Positions 717 through 58,913 of a stretch of DNA of 64,000 nucleotides are shown piece after piece. The DNA is from a virus: the IMG/VR virus record IMGVR_UViG_3300034073_004654, positions 1 to 64,000 of that record. One strand, written 5' to 3'. The notes beneath the pieces were generated by a model. It saw nothing but the letters and a program-made list of their open reading frames with translations, did no database searches and had not been told where the DNA came from. A program made the position numbers and the translations under genes. Positions within the stretch are counted from its first letter, which is position 1; each line of letters opens with the position of its first letter.

Positions 717-1934
717 GTGCAATTAGTAGAGAGGCATAGAATCAATAAAAATTCCTATAAAGGAAAGATTCTTGATAAGAAATTATTTTTATCAAAAAAT
801 CTTTATAATTCTGCCGTCTATCATTTTAGAAAACATTTTGAAATTACCGGAACTTATCTAGGTTATCATGTCTTAGATAAACAGTTCGCTTTAGAAAATC
901 AAATAGATTACAGGGCGCTACCGGCTAAAGTCGCACAACACGTATTGATGCAAGTTGATGACGCTTTTAAAAGCTTTTTTAAGGCACTTAAATCATTTAG
1001 AAAGAATCCTGTCAAGTTTACCTCAGCTCCAAAATTACCAGGATTCAAACACAAAACTAAAGGTAGAAATTTATTAATTTTCACTTCTCAAGCAATATCT
1101 AAGAAAAAAATGTCACCTTCTGGAATTGCTGAATTGCCATTACCAACAAAAATTCCACACAAAGATATCTGTCAAGTCAGAATAACTCCCGGCGACATTT
1201 ATCACACAATTGAAATAGTATACAATAAAACTGAAAAGCCTAAATCTAATGGTAATGTTATTGCTGCGTTAGACCCTGGAGTATCTAATTTAGCTACGGT
1301 TACTTTTACAAAAGGATCTCCTATAATCATTCCAGGTGGTCCGCTAAAATCTATAAATCAGTTTTATAATAAAAAACGATCTGAATTGCAGTCCAAATTA
1401 ACAGGAGATCAAAAAACTTCAAAACAAATTAAAAAACTTACTTCTAAGCGCAACGATAAAATATCTGATTATATGCATAAAGCTAGTCGATATTTAGTTA
1501 ATCATTTAGTTTCTCATGGAGTGTTCAAATTAGTTATCGGACACAACAAATCCTGGAAACAAGAGACTAATATGGGTAATAAAAATAATCAAAATTTTAT
1601 TAATATCCCGCATAGCAAATTTTTTGCTTTGTTAAAATATAAATGTGCTTTAGAAGGAATAGATATTGTAGAAAGAGAAGAAAGTTACACTAGCAAATGT
1701 AGTTTTCTAGATTTAGAGCCCATTAAGAAGCAGAAAAAATATATGGGAAGAAGATTGAAAAGAGGCTTATTTAAGTCTAAATCTGGAACCAAAATAAATG
1801 CTGATGTTAATGGCTCTTACAATATCTTGAGAAAGGAAATCCCAGAAGCTTTTAGTGATGGGATAGAGGCTGTATTAGTTCAGCCAATAAGGATAAAACC
1901 TTATAAAAATAAATTGTGGAATATTTTTCTATAA
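717..1934 (+). CDS. tnpB: TnpB-like RNA-guided nuclease (IS200/IS605 OrfB family)
   Basis: The 405-residue protein begins at GTG 717 with MQLVERHRI, a typical TnpB opening. The RuvC-like triad is visible: ALDPG with Asp near 186, VEREESYTSKC with Glu near 321, and NADVNGSYN with Asp near 363. Only the first zinc-finger area (TSKC) remains and the usual second CxxC pair is missing, as in some TnpB lineages. No TnpA transposase and no terminal hairpins were found around it, so it may be a stranded or domesticated copy. It shows little similarity to the second TnpB at 11 kb, so it was probably acquired separately. TnpB proteins cut DNA next to a short TAM under guidance of an RNA from the element end. 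No guide RNA could be placed here. Confidence 0.9.
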   Translation: MQLVERHRINKNSYKGKILDKKLFLSKNLYNSAVYHFRKHFEITGTYLGYHVLDKQFALENQIDYRALPAKVAQHVLMQVDDAFKSFFKALKSFRKNPVKFTSAPKLPGFKHKTKGRNLLIFTSQAISKKKMSPSGIAELPLPTKIPHKDICQVRITPGDIYHTIEIVYNKTEKPKSNGNVIAALDPGVSNLATVTFTKGSPIIIPGGPLKSINQFYNKKRSELQSKLTGDQKTSKQIKKLTSKRNDKISDYMHKASRYLVNHLVSHGVFKLVIGHNKSWKQETNMGNKNNQNFINIPHSKFFALLKYKCALEGIDIVEREESYTSKCSFLDLEPIKKQKKYMGRRLKRGLFKSKSGTKINADVNGSYNILRKEIPEAFSDGIEAVLVQPIRIKPYKNKLWNIFL

Positions 1935-5360: not shown

Positions 5361-6635
5361 ATGTCGTTAAAAGATTTAATTAAAGTTGGAAATTATTACG
5401 AAATTAAATATAAATTTTTAAAATTTGCGGAAGATGATGCTCATGCTCGTTCTATTGCTTTAATGAAATTTCTTTCTGGGATAGCTAAAGAATTAGGAAT
5501 TGCAGAGCACGTTTATGTTGTAGGTGGGGCGGTTAGAAATTATCTTATTGGTCAGCCTATAAAAGATATAGATGTAGTTATTGATTCTGTATTATCTGGT
5601 TATGATTCTGAATGGTTTGCTGAGCAGATAGCAAAGAAAATACAACCTGTTAAAAGTAAATTGACTACCAATAATTACGGGGTAGCGATTTTATCTATTG
5701 ATCCATCTTGGGTATTAGATGGTCATTCTATGTTAGGTCCAAAAGGAACTGGAGAAACAATAGAAATAGCCAATGCTAGAAAAGAATCTTATGGTGGATC
5801 GGAGGGTAAAGGATATAAGCCTCATTCAGTAGAAACTGCTACCATTGAAGAAGATTTATTGCGTAGAGAATTTACATTTAATACTCTTTTGTGGAGGCTA
5901 TCTAACTTAGCAGAAGGACCGGAAAAAGCTGAAGTATTAGATTTATTGGGTCGAGGCAAGTCAGATTTATCTGAAAAAATTTTAAGAACTCCGGCAGATC
6001 CGGATAAAACATTTTCTGATGATCCTACCAGGATGTTACGAGCTATTAAGTTTGTAGCTAAATATAATTTTAAAGTTCCTGAAGATATGTTGGAGAGTAT
6101 TAGGCGCAATGCTTTTAGATTAAATCAAATGCCTTGGAATGCTGTTAGAAATATTTTAATAGATGATATTTTAAAAGCTCCGAATCCAAGAAGGTCAGTA
6201 ATGTTATTGAAGGAGATGAGGCTAGCAGATGCATTAAAAGAAATGATTGAATCCAATCCTGAATTTAAGACTTCTTTGGGAAGAAGTTTTAATGATAATA
6301 CAGATCCGATGTTATTGTTGGATCTATTGGATTTGGATTGGGACATGAAAACGCCTATAAGTTTCTTAAACAATATACAACAAGAAAGATTACGAGAATT
6401 ATTGTTAGAAATGGATGAATCCGATGGTCGCGAATATGTTAAGGCTCTAATTAAGCCTCCTGTTGATTTGCAGTTCTTTTTTAAGAATTTTAACATTCCA
6501 GAAAAAGAGCGCAAGGGAGTTATTTCTATTGCAAGAGATTCTCTTTTAGAAAATCCAAATTTATTAGAAGATCTTAAAAGTCTAACAAGTGAAGTTGAAA
6601 GTAAGTTGGGGAAAATCTGGCGTCGCAACGATTGA
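5361..6635 (+). CDS. cca: CCA-adding tRNA nucleotidyltransferase with N-terminal phage leader
   Basis: The 424-residue protein has the class II poly(A) polymerase/CCA-adding head domain. GGAVRN is near residues 54-60, DIDVVID near 69-75 with the metal-binding Asp pair, RREFTFN near 168, and DPTRMLRAIKF near 221, followed by a helical RNA-binding body. The enzyme adds or repairs the 3' CCA of tRNAs. This fits the tRNA genes here that lack an encoded CCA (16433, 30300 and 58837). The first 17 residues, MSLKDLIKVGNYYEIKY, are not part of the enzyme family. They are the type A leader seen on unrelated proteins in this window, so the enzyme may be packaged and injected. It has no consensus promoter and the upstream DNA is AT-rich. 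Confidence 0.9.
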   Translation: MSLKDLIKVGNYYEIKYKFLKFAEDDAHARSIALMKFLSGIAKELGIAEHVYVVGGAVRNYLIGQPIKDIDVVIDSVLSGYDSEWFAEQIAKKIQPVKSKLTTNNYGVAILSIDPSWVLDGHSMLGPKGTGETIEIANARKESYGGSEGKGYKPHSVETATIEEDLLRREFTFNTLLWRLSNLAEGPEKAEVLDLLGRGKSDLSEKILRTPADPDKTFSDDPTRMLRAIKFVAKYNFKVPEDMLESIRRNAFRLNQMPWNAVRNILIDDILKAPNPRRSVMLLKEMRLADALKEMIESNPEFKTSLGRSFNDNTDPMLLLDLLDLDWDMKTPISFLNNIQQERLRELLLEMDESDGREYVKALIKPPVDLQFFFKNFNIPEKERKGVISIARDSLLENPNLLEDLKSLTSEVESKLGKIWRRND

Positions 6636-11013: not shown

Positions 11014-12186
11014 TCAATTACCACCAGCACAAGGCTGGTGGCTTGTAAGTAGCATTTCTGCCCCTACAATAGGCTGATTGACAACAGCCCCATTGGATAG
11101 CTTATAGCTATCCAATGCTCTAATGCTAATATTTCTACTAGCATTCAAGTCTGCATTTAGTTTAAATCCACAGCTTTTACAGCAAAAATTAGCTTGATTT
11201 TTCCTGTTCTTTTTATCTATGTTTCCACACTTGCTACATTTTTGACTAGTATAAGCTGGATTTACATAAACTACATTTATGCCTTTTGCTATTGCTTTAT
11301 AAATCAAAAACTGTTCTAACTGATAATAATTCCAGCTATTTAAAGCTGCTCTTTGACGTTTTCTGACTTTTTGATTTCTAATACCAGTCAATTTCTCTAA
11401 AGCAATAGTGTCACCTGAATTTAAACTGTTTATTATTTCTTTACTTATCTTATGATTAAGATCTGCCTTAAACCGTTTTTCCTTACCTGATAATTTCTTA
11501 AGGTGTCTTTTAGCAGATTTGCTTCCATTTTTTTGTAAGTTACTTCTTAATGTTTTACGTTTCTGGCAAATTAATTTTAATTTATCTCCAGAATAAAATT
11601 TATTATTTGAAGTAACAGCTAGTTTGTTTATTCCTCTATCAACTCCTAAAAATTTTCCATTCGATTTAATATCTTCAATATCTTTTTCAAAAGATATGTG
11701 TAAGTAGACCTTTCCTTTTTTAAGGACAAGATCAGCACTGGTATATTTCCATCCATCAAAATAATGCTGATAATATACTGGAATATTTAGTTTAATTTTT
11801 TTCCTACCATCAATTGTTAAAATTGACACTTCTCCAGATTTAAGCAAAGAATAGCTATTACAATCTAATCTAATAGAGGACAGTTTGGATTGTGGACATT
11901 TGCTGTATTTATTTTTACTTTTAATGCTTTTTAAAGCTTCTACTGCTTTGGTTCTGGCTGAAATAGCTAATTGTGATGGTAGGTTAAAATTGGCTCTACA
12001 ATCTTGGTAAGTTAATTTATGAAGTTCAATAGCGTTAGATATTTTATTATCATAGCCAACTTGACAAACTAAGTTAAATGCATTAGTATAGGCTTGCAAC
12101 GATGGTAGAATTTGATCTACCTTCATATTAAGTTTTAACTTAGCAGTCCTACATAGCTTCATATATGAATATATAAAGTTATGCAT
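11014..12186 (-). CDS. tnpB: TnpB RNA-guided nuclease
   Basis: The 390-residue protein has the full RuvC-like triad: GVDRG with Asp near 183, IALEKLTG with Glu near 263, and NADLNASRN with Asp near 345. A complete zinc finger lies between the last two (CSKCG then CCKSCG). TnpB uses an RNA transcribed from the right element end as guide and cuts DNA beside its TAM, which keeps the element from being lost after excision. The right-end hairpin overlaps the last codons (HQPCAGGN), as is usual for the guide RNA scaffold. Met9 (12162), opening MKLCRTAKLKLN, may be the true start. The flanking guide would match the 5' half of the tRNA-Leu gene. Confidence 0.92.
   Translation of the reverse strand: MHNFIYSYMKLCRTAKLKLNMKVDQILPSLQAYTNAFNLVCQVGYDNKISNAIELHKLTYQDCRANFNLPSQLAISARTKAVEALKSIKSKNKYSKCPQSKLSSIRLDCNSYSLLKSGEVSILTIDGRKKIKLNIPVYYQHYFDGWKYTSADLVLKKGKVYLHISFEKDIEDIKSNGKFLGVDRGINKLAVTSNNKFYSGDKLKLICQKRKTLRSNLQKNGSKSAKRHLKKLSGKEKRFKADLNHKISKEIINSLNSGDTIALEKLTGIRNQKVRKRQRAALNSWNYYQLEQFLIYKAIAKGINVVYVNPAYTSQKCSKCGNIDKKNRKNQANFCCKSCGFKLNADLNASRNISIRALDSYKLSNGAVVNQPIVGAEMLLTSHQPCAGGN
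11021..11041. repeat. IS right-end hairpin
   Basis: CCACCAGC, loop ACAAG, GCTGGTGG: an imperfect-palindrome end structure also present at 12221-12241 with a single loop change. In this family such hairpins are recognised by TnpA and form part of the TnpB guide RNA scaffold. Confidence 0.85.
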
Positions 12187-30096: not shown

Positions 30097-30166
30097 GCCT
30101 TGCGGGACGGATTCCCAGTGAAAACTTCTAATTTTTACGTTCTATGTTCGACTCATAGGCAAGGCG
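30097..30166 (+). tRNA. tRNA-Arg(UCU), short, with unusual D-arm
   Basis: Acceptor GCCTTGC with GCAAGGC, anticodon stem GAAAA/TTTTT with loop CTTCTAA (anticodon UCU), and T-arm CTATG/CATAG with loop TTCGACT. The D region (GGGACGGATTCCCAGT) does not form a normal arm: GGGA/TCCC would leave no 8-9 linker. Total length is only 70 bases and no CCA is encoded. Either a minimal phage tRNA or a decaying one. Confidence 0.65.
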
Positions 30167-30299
30167 CTAACCTTAAAGGTTCGAATCTTAAATTAAAAAA
30201 TAAAAGCATAGGTAAAATAAAAAAAATGATGTAAGTAAAAAAATCTTGATATAGAATAAGAAGCTAAAAACAAAACAAGCAAAGACACTGAACATATAT

Positions 30300-30579
30300 T
30301 CTGGAGTAGCACAATAGGTGGTGCAATCGGCTGTTTATAAATGGCAGCTTTCTATAGTAATGTAGATTGAAAAAGACTCTAAATTCAGGGAACCCTTCAT
30401 CGAAAGATATGGCAATCCTGAGCCAAACCGGGAAACCGGGAGGTGCAGAGACTATAATGGGTCCATCCTTTAAAGAGGATGATGGGATAGTCCAGACTAC
30501 AAACAATAGAAATATTGGTAATGAAAATTATAGTAGCAAAGTAACCGATTGGTTATTGGTTCGACCCCAATCTCCAGAG
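30300..30579 (+). tRNA. tRNA-Asn(GUU) split by a group I intron
   Basis: The 5' exon 30300-30334 has acceptor TCTGGAG, D-arm GCAC/GTGC and anticodon stem ATCGG, then CTGT. The 3' exon 30542-30579 has TAA, CCGAT, TGGTT, T-arm ATTGG/CCAAT with loop TTCGACC, and acceptor CTCCAGA. Joining the exons gives stem ATCGG, loop CTGTTAA, stem CCGAT, a perfect 7-base loop with anticodon GUU. All stems pair fully. CCA is not encoded. The intron separates the second and third anticodon bases. Confidence 0.92.
30335..30541 (+). ncRNA. Group I self-splicing intron (207 nt)
   Basis: P1 pairs exon GCTGT with the internal guide GGCAGC at 30343-30348, with the required U-G at the splice site; the intron ends in G. 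P4 is TCAGG with CCTGA, P7 is GACTAT (about 30450) with ATAGTC (about 30487), and P8 is CATCCT with AGGATG. P6 shows CCGG, loop GAAA, CCGG; P9 shows CAATA, loop GAAA, TATTG. These are the ordered core elements of a small group I ribozyme. No reading frame lies inside it; an HNH nuclease gene follows the tRNA. Confidence 0.9.
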
Positions 30580-30662
30580 CAAATAAAACGAGGCTAGTTA
30601 ATTCTAGTCTCGTTTTTTTTATTTCTAGTCGAGAGGCTATAATAATTACACATCATAGCCTT

Positions 30663-31232
30663 ATGAGTAATCGTTCGGAACATGTAAAAAAATGGAGAAA
30701 AAATTCTAAACAAAGGATCATTGCTGCTATGGGCGGATCTTGTTGTATCTGCGGATATAACAAATGCGACTCTTCTTTGGCAATGCATCATTTGGATCCG
30801 TCTAAAAAAGATTTTACTTTTGGCTCAGTAAGAGCCAGTCCAGTAAATTGGCAGACCGTTGTTGAAGAATTAAGAAAGTGTATTTTGGTTTGTCACAACT
30901 GCCATTCTGAAATACACGCAGGCATTACACCTGTTCCAGAAAATCATCCAAAATTCGACGAGTCTTATGCCGATTATAAGATGGATAGAAAATATAGATC
31001 TTATACTCCATGTTTGTTTTGCAATAAATTAAAGGGTAAAAGTTTTAAATATTGTTCTCCAGAGTGCGCTTCCAAATCATCTCGTAAAGTGGATTGGGAT
31101 CTTATAGATTTAGAAGAAGAATTAAAAACAAAATCAGTTTTAAAGCTATCAAAAGAATTAGGCTGTTCCGATGTTGCCATTCATAAAAGATTAAAAAGAA
31201 TGGGGTTAAAAAATAAATCCCCCTCCCCTTAA
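30663..31232 (+). CDS. HNH endonuclease beside the intron-bearing tRNA
   Basis: A 189-residue protein from ATG 30663 (the longer frame starts inside the tRNA and is rejected). CCICGYNKCDSS and later CILVCHNCHSEIHAG bracket LAMHHLDPSKKDF, a typical zinc-stabilised HNH core. A second zinc pair (CLFCNKLKGKSF, YCSPEC) and a terminal helix-turn-helix (LSKELGCSDVAIHKRLKRM) give it DNA-binding ability. HNH enzymes next to introns often act as homing endonucleases for them. It lies 84 bases after the tRNA-Asn. Confidence 0.88.
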   Translation: MSNRSEHVKKWRKNSKQRIIAAMGGSCCICGYNKCDSSLAMHHLDPSKKDFTFGSVRASPVNWQTVVEELRKCILVCHNCHSEIHAGITPVPENHPKFDESYADYKMDRKYRSYTPCLFCNKLKGKSFKYCSPECASKSSRKVDWDLIDLEEELKTKSVLKLSKELGCSDVAIHKRLKRMGLKNKSPSP

Positions 31233-31366: not shown

Positions 31367-32389
31367 ATGTCAAAAATCTCAAAAATCCTAGAAGCCTGCG
31401 ATATTTTCTCTCGTCTTGTAAAAAAAGCTGATTATTCAGCTGACATTACAGATGGCAAGAAAGCTTTAAATAATTTGAAATCCGTCATTGAGGGATTGGA
31501 TATTGAATCTTTTAGAAGGATTTTAGAAGAGGAAAATGACGAATATCGTTATTTACCTGGAAGATTAATGGGGGATAAATATAAAGATTGCAGGGTTCAA
31601 TTTCAATATAAGGATGAACCGCAAAAAGAAGATAAGTTTATTAATTTTGAAATAGTTAACAGGGATGATTACGAGGATTATGAAGCTTATGAGGATGATA
31701 AGCCAATATCCACTCCAATTGGACCTGCCATTTTACAAGACGGCTATGATTTAGAATTAATATTAGATATTGATAGTTTTTCAAGTCATCGAAATTATTT
31801 ATTTAGTGAAGGTCGAACTCGTCCCAGTGAATTTTTTGAATTTAAAATAGAAGAAGGAGCTGAAGAAGATGAATACATTAATGACTTAGATGAGGCTTAT
31901 TTAATTGGATTAAAGAAAGCAATTATTAAGGCTTGTTCAAAGGAGCAGCCTGCATTTTATCATGAGGTGGCTCATTTAAGAAGAATGAGAAAGCAAAACC
32001 CTATAGAATTTATTAAGCAATGGAACCCATCAAAATCGCCCAATGTACCATTAAATTTGATGAAAGCTAATTTTAAAACTGATACTGAGTTATATCCACA
32101 GGAGTTGGAGCGATTTTCTAATGAACTTCGCAAATTAATTAATGAATTTAATTTAAGAAAAAGCAAAAGAGATCCTTCTTGGGAGGAGCTAAGTTTCTTG
32201 GATTTCTTGGATCAAATTTATGATATGCGGTCCAAACATAATTTTATTACATCTATGAAGGGAAGAATGGATATCGGTCTTGGTTTCTATGATGAATATG
32301 ATGATTATTCAAAATCCGCGATAAAAAGAATTTCCAAGTTTTACGATGACATGGTAGCTGGGAAATTTAAAGATACGCTTGGCATTTAA
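31367..32389 (+). CDS. Leader-bearing acidic protein
   Basis: The 340-residue protein starts MSKISKILEACDIFSRLVKK, then ADYSAD: the clearest type B leader. A beta-rich acidic centre (residues 60-170) precedes a helical C-terminus with PAFYHEVAHLRRMRKQNP; its HEVAH is an HExxH-like pentapeptide at about 202-206, so a metallopeptidase cannot be excluded. First of three type B leader genes nearby (32407 and 34627 follow). No consensus promoter, only TATAAT plus upstream repeats. Confidence 0.82.
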   Translation: MSKISKILEACDIFSRLVKKADYSADITDGKKALNNLKSVIEGLDIESFRRILEEENDEYRYLPGRLMGDKYKDCRVQFQYKDEPQKEDKFINFEIVNRDDYEDYEAYEDDKPISTPIGPAILQDGYDLELILDIDSFSSHRNYLFSEGRTRPSEFFEFKIEEGAEEDEYINDLDEAYLIGLKKAIIKACSKEQPAFYHEVAHLRRMRKQNPIEFIKQWNPSKSPNVPLNLMKANFKTDTELYPQELERFSNELRKLINEFNLRKSKRDPSWEELSFLDFLDQIYDMRSKHNFITSMKGRMDIGLGFYDEYDDYSKSAIKRISKFYDDMVAGKFKDTLGI

Positions 32390-58836: not shown

Positions 58837-58913
58837 CCGACCTTAGCTCAATATTTGGTTAGAGCAGTGCGCTCATAACGCAACGGTTCACGGTTCAAGT
58901 CCGTGAGGTCGGA
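58837..58913 (+). tRNA. tRNA with CAU anticodon (Met or Ile2), no CCA encoded
   Basis: Acceptor CCGACCT with AGGTCGG (same as the 15288 tRNA), D-stem GCTC/GAGC with a long loop, anticodon arm GTGCG, CTCATAA, CGCAA, and T-arm CACGG/CCGTG with loop TTCAAGT. Base pair 27-43 is mismatched. The discriminator A is followed by CAA, so CCA must be added. With TilS nearby it may be Ile2. Confidence 0.9.

Follow-up and report, generated by a model that had tools for sequence, protein, structure and literature searches.

Does a phage carry an asparagine tRNA gene whose anticodon is split by a group I intron and, if so, how does the intron spread? This question is raised by positions 30300-30579 of the 64,000-nt stretch of viral DNA analysed here (hereafter the window; positions 1 to 64,000 of IMG/VR record IMGVR_UViG_3300034073_004654). 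A preliminary description, made from the letters alone, had proposed such a tRNA-Asn(GUU) gene; the covariance model, the geometry of the junction, covariation among homologues and an intronless homologue, as described below, all bear this proposal out.

The split tRNA-Asn(GUU) gene and its junction

On the + strand of 30300-30579, the 5' exon reads TCTGGAG-TA-GCAC...GTGC-A-ATCGG-CTGT and, after 207 nt, the 3' exon reads TAA-CCGAT-TGGTT-ATTGG-TTCGACC-CCAAT-CTCCAGA-G. Running ARAGORN on the window in intron mode (-i) returned tRNA-Asn(gtt)i(36,207), a gene identical to the one first proposed. When the exons were joined, the resulting 73-nt RNA was folded by ARAGORN as tRNA-Asn(gtt), with a standard cloverleaf, the 7-nt loop CTGTTAA and G73. 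The acceptor (TCTGGAG/CTCCAGA), anticodon (ATCGG/CCGAT), D and T stems are all paired, so that two earlier claims, that every tRNA stem pairs across a 207-nt insert and that the joined anticodon loop has exactly seven bases, were recovered. The gene sequence lacks the CCA 3' end. No intron-containing tRNA was called by ARAGORN in 30 shuffled windows (1.92 Mb). The gene itself was listed neither by ARAGORN without intron mode nor by a fast whole-window Rfam scan at gathering thresholds.

Scanning the region with permissive filters gave a match to the group I covariance model RF00028 at 30325-30519 (62 bits against a cut-off of 50, E 2.9e-15), and the folding z-score, counted against chance, was -3.5. 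The elements named in the preliminary description, namely the exon/guide helix, P4, P6, P7, P8 and P9, were all located, and so were P2, P3 and P5 (Table 1). We placed the junction between U35 and U36, where it had been predicted, because the P1 helix of guide and exon closes with U.G at U35, the last base of the intron is a G (30541) and the exon halves close a seven-base loop, three points that are independent of one another. An intronless tRNA-Asn in viral contig L287 (5304-5378), 89% identical over 64 nt, was consistent with this placement: its allele, ...CGGCTGTTAACCG..., is unbroken, with an uninterrupted CTGTTAA exactly at the predicted junction. Two of the checks suggested at the outset, a group I covariance model and a search for intronless relatives, had thus both come out in favour of the proposal. 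Taken together, the sequence evidence supports the reading of 30300-30579 as a tRNA-Asn(GUU) gene split between U35 and U36 by a group I intron.

The position in the anticodon loop would also suit an archaeal or eukaryotic type of tRNA intron, which is spliced by proteins. Introns of that type usually lie at 37/38, whereas the junction here is at 35/36, and the 207-nt length, the full group I core, the RF00028 score above cut-off, the terminal G, the P1 with its U.G pair and the invariant P7 all speak against a protein-spliced intron, to which we attach practically no weight.

Table 1. Coordinates of the features discussed; positions are those of the window unless a locus label precedes them.
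Feature	Position	Strand	Evidence
tRNA-Asn 5' exon: acceptor, D arm, anticodon stem 5' strand, C32 U33 G34 U35	30300-30334	+	35 nt
Group I intron, 207 nt, without open reading frame (ORF), last base the terminal G at 30541	30335-30541	+	RF00028 62 bits; ARAGORN i(36,207)
Internal guide GCAGC, P1 with exon GCUGU (30330-30334), U.G at 5' splice site	30344-30348	+	97.2% of P1 cells paired, 18 homologues
P2 hairpin, GTAA loop (30351-30356/30361-30366)	30351-30366	+	compensatory changes in 7 of 7 pairs
P3 5' strand GACTC; partner GGGTC 30459-30463; pseudoknot with P7	30375-30379	+	compensatory changes in 5 of 5 pairs
P4 (30385-30390/30416-30421), with P5 inside	30385-30421	+	100% of P4 cells paired
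P6 (30422-30424/30442-30444) plus extension	30422-30444	+	pair counts, 18 homologues
P7 GACTA 30450-30454/TAGTC 30488-30492, enclosing P3 3' strand and P8	30450-30492	+	invariant in 18 of 18 homologues
P8 CATCC 30464-30468/GGATG 30477-30481	30464-30481	+	pair counts, 18 homologues
P9 (30504-30508/30513-30517) and second conserved 3' hairpin (30518-30522/30527-30531)	30504-30531	+	Rfam match, pair counts
tRNA-Asn 3' exon: U36 A37 A38, anticodon stem 3' strand, variable loop, T arm, acceptor, G73	30542-30579	+	38 nt
Intrinsic terminator, strong, directly 3' of tRNA-Asn	30585-30616	+	13 pairs, then TTTTATTT
Free-standing HNH endonuclease, 189 aa, of a family found inside tRNA introns and next to them	30663-31232	+	phrog_35854 E 7.8e-38
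Phage tRNA nucleotidyltransferase	5361-6635	+	phrog_2244 E 2.9e-33; PolyA_pol head domain E 2e-16
tRNA-Leu(UAA) introns and Microcoleus phage tRNA-Arg(CCU), together	L002:1243-1604; L005:1308-1598; L004:1311-1596; L305:68-854		

Three further tRNA features of the window were recorded. At 58837-58913, a CAU tRNA whose D loop is enlarged gave an Rfam match of 57 bits and no ARAGORN call; tRNA-Leu (16433) and tRNA-Arg (30097) were called by ARAGORN and are not among the Rfam gathering matches. Just 3' of this tRNA-Arg (30097-30167), the sequence AAAGGTTCGAATCTT at 30168-30200 resembles a lone T arm and is perhaps the remnant of another tRNA.

Covariation, spread and ancestry of the intron

We investigated the conservation of the locus in an alignment of 18 phage tRNA-Asn genes that are interrupted by an intron at the same site, counting pairs for the cloverleaf, P1-P8 and the 3' hairpin and treating P3 and P7 as a pseudoknot. 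Paired cells amounted to 97.0%, compared to 75.8% after shuffling and 30-44% with the partners slid. Compensatory changes were observed in 42 of the 65 pairs, including 3 of 6 in P4 and 3 of 5 in P8; some of the cells left unpaired in P3 and P8 came from L072, L076 and L124, whose P7-P9 region is somewhat different. All seven acceptor-stem pairs and all five anticodon-stem pairs showed such changes. The halves of both stems flank the intron, and compensation across it is expected only if the exons get joined and used.

The source record is a metagenomic fragment, which would fit a decayed, non-splicing intron in a tRNA-Asn pseudogene. Decay is hard to reconcile with tRNA and intron helices that are all intact and covarying, those spanning the intron included, and with phage exon sequences that diverge widely while their pairing is kept, and we judge it very unlikely. 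We consider it highly probable that 30300-30579 encodes a self-splicing intron within a functional tRNA-Asn. In the proposed mechanism, the guide GCAGC would pair with GCUGU of the 5' exon in the transcript, an external guanosine would attack after U35, and the freed U35 would in turn attack after the terminal G (30541). The tRNA halves would thereby be joined, giving the normal 7-nt anticodon loop CUGUUAA, and the 3' end would presumably be completed by the phage CCA-adding enzyme (5361-6635).

How widespread is the site? Pattern scans were made of IMG/VR and of bacterial and archaeal genomes, followed by ARAGORN and by our own junction-calling script. Many of the isotypes that ARAGORN gave to intron genes ('Thr-TGT', 'Asp-GTC', 'His', 'Tyr', 'SeC') were found to be tRNA-Asn with a shifted junction, and the junctions were therefore re-called with the script. 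An early reading that placed the nearest intron in a tRNA-Asp was dropped, that isotype also reflecting a shifted junction. An intron between U35 and U36 of tRNA-Asn was present in at least 39 IMG/VR phage contigs and at least 75 bacterial contigs, counts that are tilted towards Asn because the scan patterns were built around GTAA. Among the matches listed, the bacterial carriers belong mostly to Patescibacteria lineages, with Omnitrophota, Elusimicrobiota and single others. A chance resemblance or an assembly artefact might be suspected in a single metagenomic record with a gene that default tools missed; the same architecture at the same nucleotide in all those phage contigs, and in none of the shuffled windows, makes this barely credible. 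The insertion site is thus recurrent in nature and, as far as the open-access literature could be read, undescribed in phages.

Other searches were negative or gave a single lead. Four intron queries found no tRNA-Asn introns in GenBank phages, and the intron search gave no match in plasmids. For the CCA-adding enzyme, ten relatives were found, and one 416-kb record among them bears an intronless tRNA-Asn; RF00028 had no match in the nine of these ten records that were searched. The protein encoded at 31367-32389 had no relatives in IMG/VR.

A tree built from 118 tRNA introns placed the intron of the window in a clade of 23, all from phage tRNA-Asn genes (support 99/94), and within that clade in an 8-row subclade (support 99/80); the closest intron is 83% identical. 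Most bacterial tRNA-Asn introns fell apart from the phage clade, the deeper branching being uncertain because the bootstrap was not fully settled. Judged by this tree, the intron is part of a clade of phage introns that has specialised on one site, U35/U36 of tRNA-Asn.

These observations have a practical side. Intron-split tRNAs escape both fast Rfam scans and tRNA finders at default settings, and phage and Patescibacteria genomes may therefore seem to be without tRNAs that they possess. The same blind spot partly explains the earlier view that phage introns lie in protein genes throughout.

The neighbouring HNH endonuclease

The gene for a free-standing HNH endonuclease, which the preliminary description had left unmentioned, begins 83 nt past the tRNA-Asn; its Pfam matches are sub-threshold only. 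Relatives were counted by tblastn (E at most 1e-5), those outside an intron within 1.5 kb of it. Among the matches listed, the bacterial tRNA-Asn introns of at least 450 nt, 23 in number, all contained a member of the family. Members were also present inside two of three long phage tRNA-Asn introns, phage L154 being one with the gene inside its intron. Relatives lay outside, at up to 1.5 kb, at 18 of 36 short phage tRNA-Asn introns, compared to 6.3% of random positions in the fetched phage loci. The nearest relatives among the fetched loci, L142 (52% identity) and L103 (41%), each lie directly upstream of an intron-bearing tRNA-Asn. These data are consistent with the HNH protein being the homing partner of the tRNA-Asn intron and acting in trans, the reading towards which we lean. 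The free-standing endonuclease would then cut intronless tRNA genes, and the intron would spread by homing.

Several points weigh against this partnership. About a dozen of the 18 associations come from one phage lineage whose introns are nearly identical, so that the number of independent cases is perhaps 4-5; nor were the fetched loci a random sample. The other 18 of the 36 short introns have no HNH relative within 1.5 kb. Moreover, the family occurs in intronless tRNA clusters of the GenBank phages FelixO1, CR3, DAC15 and Aci05; the HNH gene may therefore move by itself. Together with the terminator that lies between tRNA-Asn and HNH, these intronless clusters and the half of short introns without an HNH gene nearby favour another explanation, namely that the intron splices and the HNH gene is unrelated to it, an independent mobile gene of tRNA clusters, with the intron moving by recombination or with the help of an unlinked endonuclease. 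The placement of the same family inside all 23 long bacterial introns listed and inside the intron of phage L154, and the adjacency of the nearest relatives to intron-bearing tRNA-Asn genes, argue against a mere coincidence of neighbours; we regard an unrelated HNH gene as a possibility of some weight, though not a probable one.

If the HNH protein is the homing partner, the simplest view would be that the intron owes its mobility to a tRNA-gene endonuclease, which is encoded within it in bacteria and a few phages, and next to it in phages. More broadly, and with a little less than even confidence, we suggest that a large, barely described network of anticodon-splitting tRNA-Asn introns may join phages and Patescibacteria, served by one HNH family that comes in two layouts, intron-encoded in bacteria and standing free next to the tRNA in phages. 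The tRNA clusters of phages would in that case be both a reservoir and a vehicle for introns of essential bacterial tRNA genes. Because a single site in one tRNA recurs together with a matching endonuclease, the homing of introns into tRNA genes can be put to a direct test, and the homologues form a chain in which the intron is present or absent and the endonuclease internal or external.

Two loci with members of the HNH family deserve separate mention. In Cronobacter phage CR3 (L284:1321-1767) the gene lies directly 3' of an intronless tRNA-Asn, a natural intron-minus, endonuclease-plus layout. In Lak-B6 (L286:1179-1394) an apparent tRNA-Ser(GCT) with a 141-nt insert lies about 100 nt upstream of an HNH homologue. 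Elsewhere, the window holds two phrog_506-type transposase genes, at 717-1934 (+) and 11014-12186 (-), and the phage carries DUF444, SpoVR and PrkA genes in a row (L279:1084-5556; record 65084-69556), a module otherwise familiar from stress and sporulation in bacteria.

Comparison with known tRNA introns and homing systems

According to a 2014 review, all phage introns then known lay in protein genes, despite the many tRNAs of phages (PMC3984707). Devoto et al. (2019) described tRNA introns in Lak megaphages, to those authors' knowledge the first known in phages (PMC6784885). The remarks on novelty in the preliminary description, that phage group I introns sit mostly in protein genes and that none was known in tRNA-Asn, therefore needed amending: phage tRNA introns had already been reported in Lak, others are present in deposited phages, and dozens of phage contigs, as well as Patescibacteria genomes, have an intron at the tRNA-Asn site. 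For a tRNA-Asn group I intron in a phage, no published report was found in the open-access literature. The Lak introns resemble the one described here in lying within phage tRNA genes and in having intron-plus and intron-minus alleles; they differ in that the tRNAs named in the main text are Tyr(GTA) and Thr(TGT), that the introns are called 'enigmatic' there, and that no tRNA-Asn or group I assignment was found in the passages on them (PMC6784885). By its title, a 2025 preprint (Nakagawa et al., bioRxiv 10.1101/2025.07.03.662931, cited in PMC12641178) concerns group I introns that occupy a novel insertion site in the tRNA genes of Patescibacteria. That site may well be the tRNA-Asn site found here, the difference being that the title speaks of bacteria, not phages.

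Our pattern scans found phage introns also in tRNA-Leu(UAA), tRNA-Arg(UCU), tRNA-Lys and others. Two jumbo phages, Klebsiella phage Muenster (L008:1458-1767) and Escherichia phage TH47 (L303:628-933), carry group I introns in tRNA-Met(CAU). Like the tRNA-Asn intron, these lie in the anticodon loop (104 bits in L008) with an HNH gene annotated nearby; unlike it, they interrupt tRNA-Met(CAU), with the junction after U36. Both tRNA-Met genes are unannotated; the Muenster record does not list its gene as a tRNA. Related introns were noted in KP13-7, RCIP0023, phiKp_21 and Turkey5. Agrobacterium phage Atu_ph07 and two huge-phage assemblies were found to have introns in tRNA-Leu(UAA), and Microcoleus phage My-WqHQDG has one in a tRNA-Arg(CCU) gene of 286 nt (Table 1). 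L002, L004 and L005 had no RF00028 match (E at most 0.01), and the model may therefore miss some tRNA introns. In a 484-kb phage (LR756508, L009:1358-2380), a HEARO RNA (RF02033, 144 bits) lies near two tRNAs, Lys and Arg, that appear to contain introns, and in a deep-sea autographivirus two group I introns follow in quick succession beside pieces of a capsid gene (L007:767-947 and 1476-1656).

The introns of bacterial and plastid tRNA-Leu(UAA), -fMet, -Arg(CCU) and -Ile(CAU) are likewise small group I ribozymes of the anticodon loop, usually without an ORF, and share the pairing of exon and internal guide, the U at the 5' splice site and the terminal G. The tRNA-Asn intron differs from them in its tRNA and site (U35/U36), in being phage-borne and in grouping with phage introns in the tree. 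As for its movement, 'collaborative homing' in cyanophage psbA involves a free-standing homing endonuclease that acts on a neighbouring intron site; as here, the endonuclease gene lies outside the intron and adjoins the intron-bearing gene. SegB of T-even phages is likewise a free-standing homing endonuclease, in a tRNA context. Compared with collaborative homing and SegB, the system described here would unite a tRNA gene with an HNH endonuclease of the phrog_35854 type, whose cleavage is a prediction.
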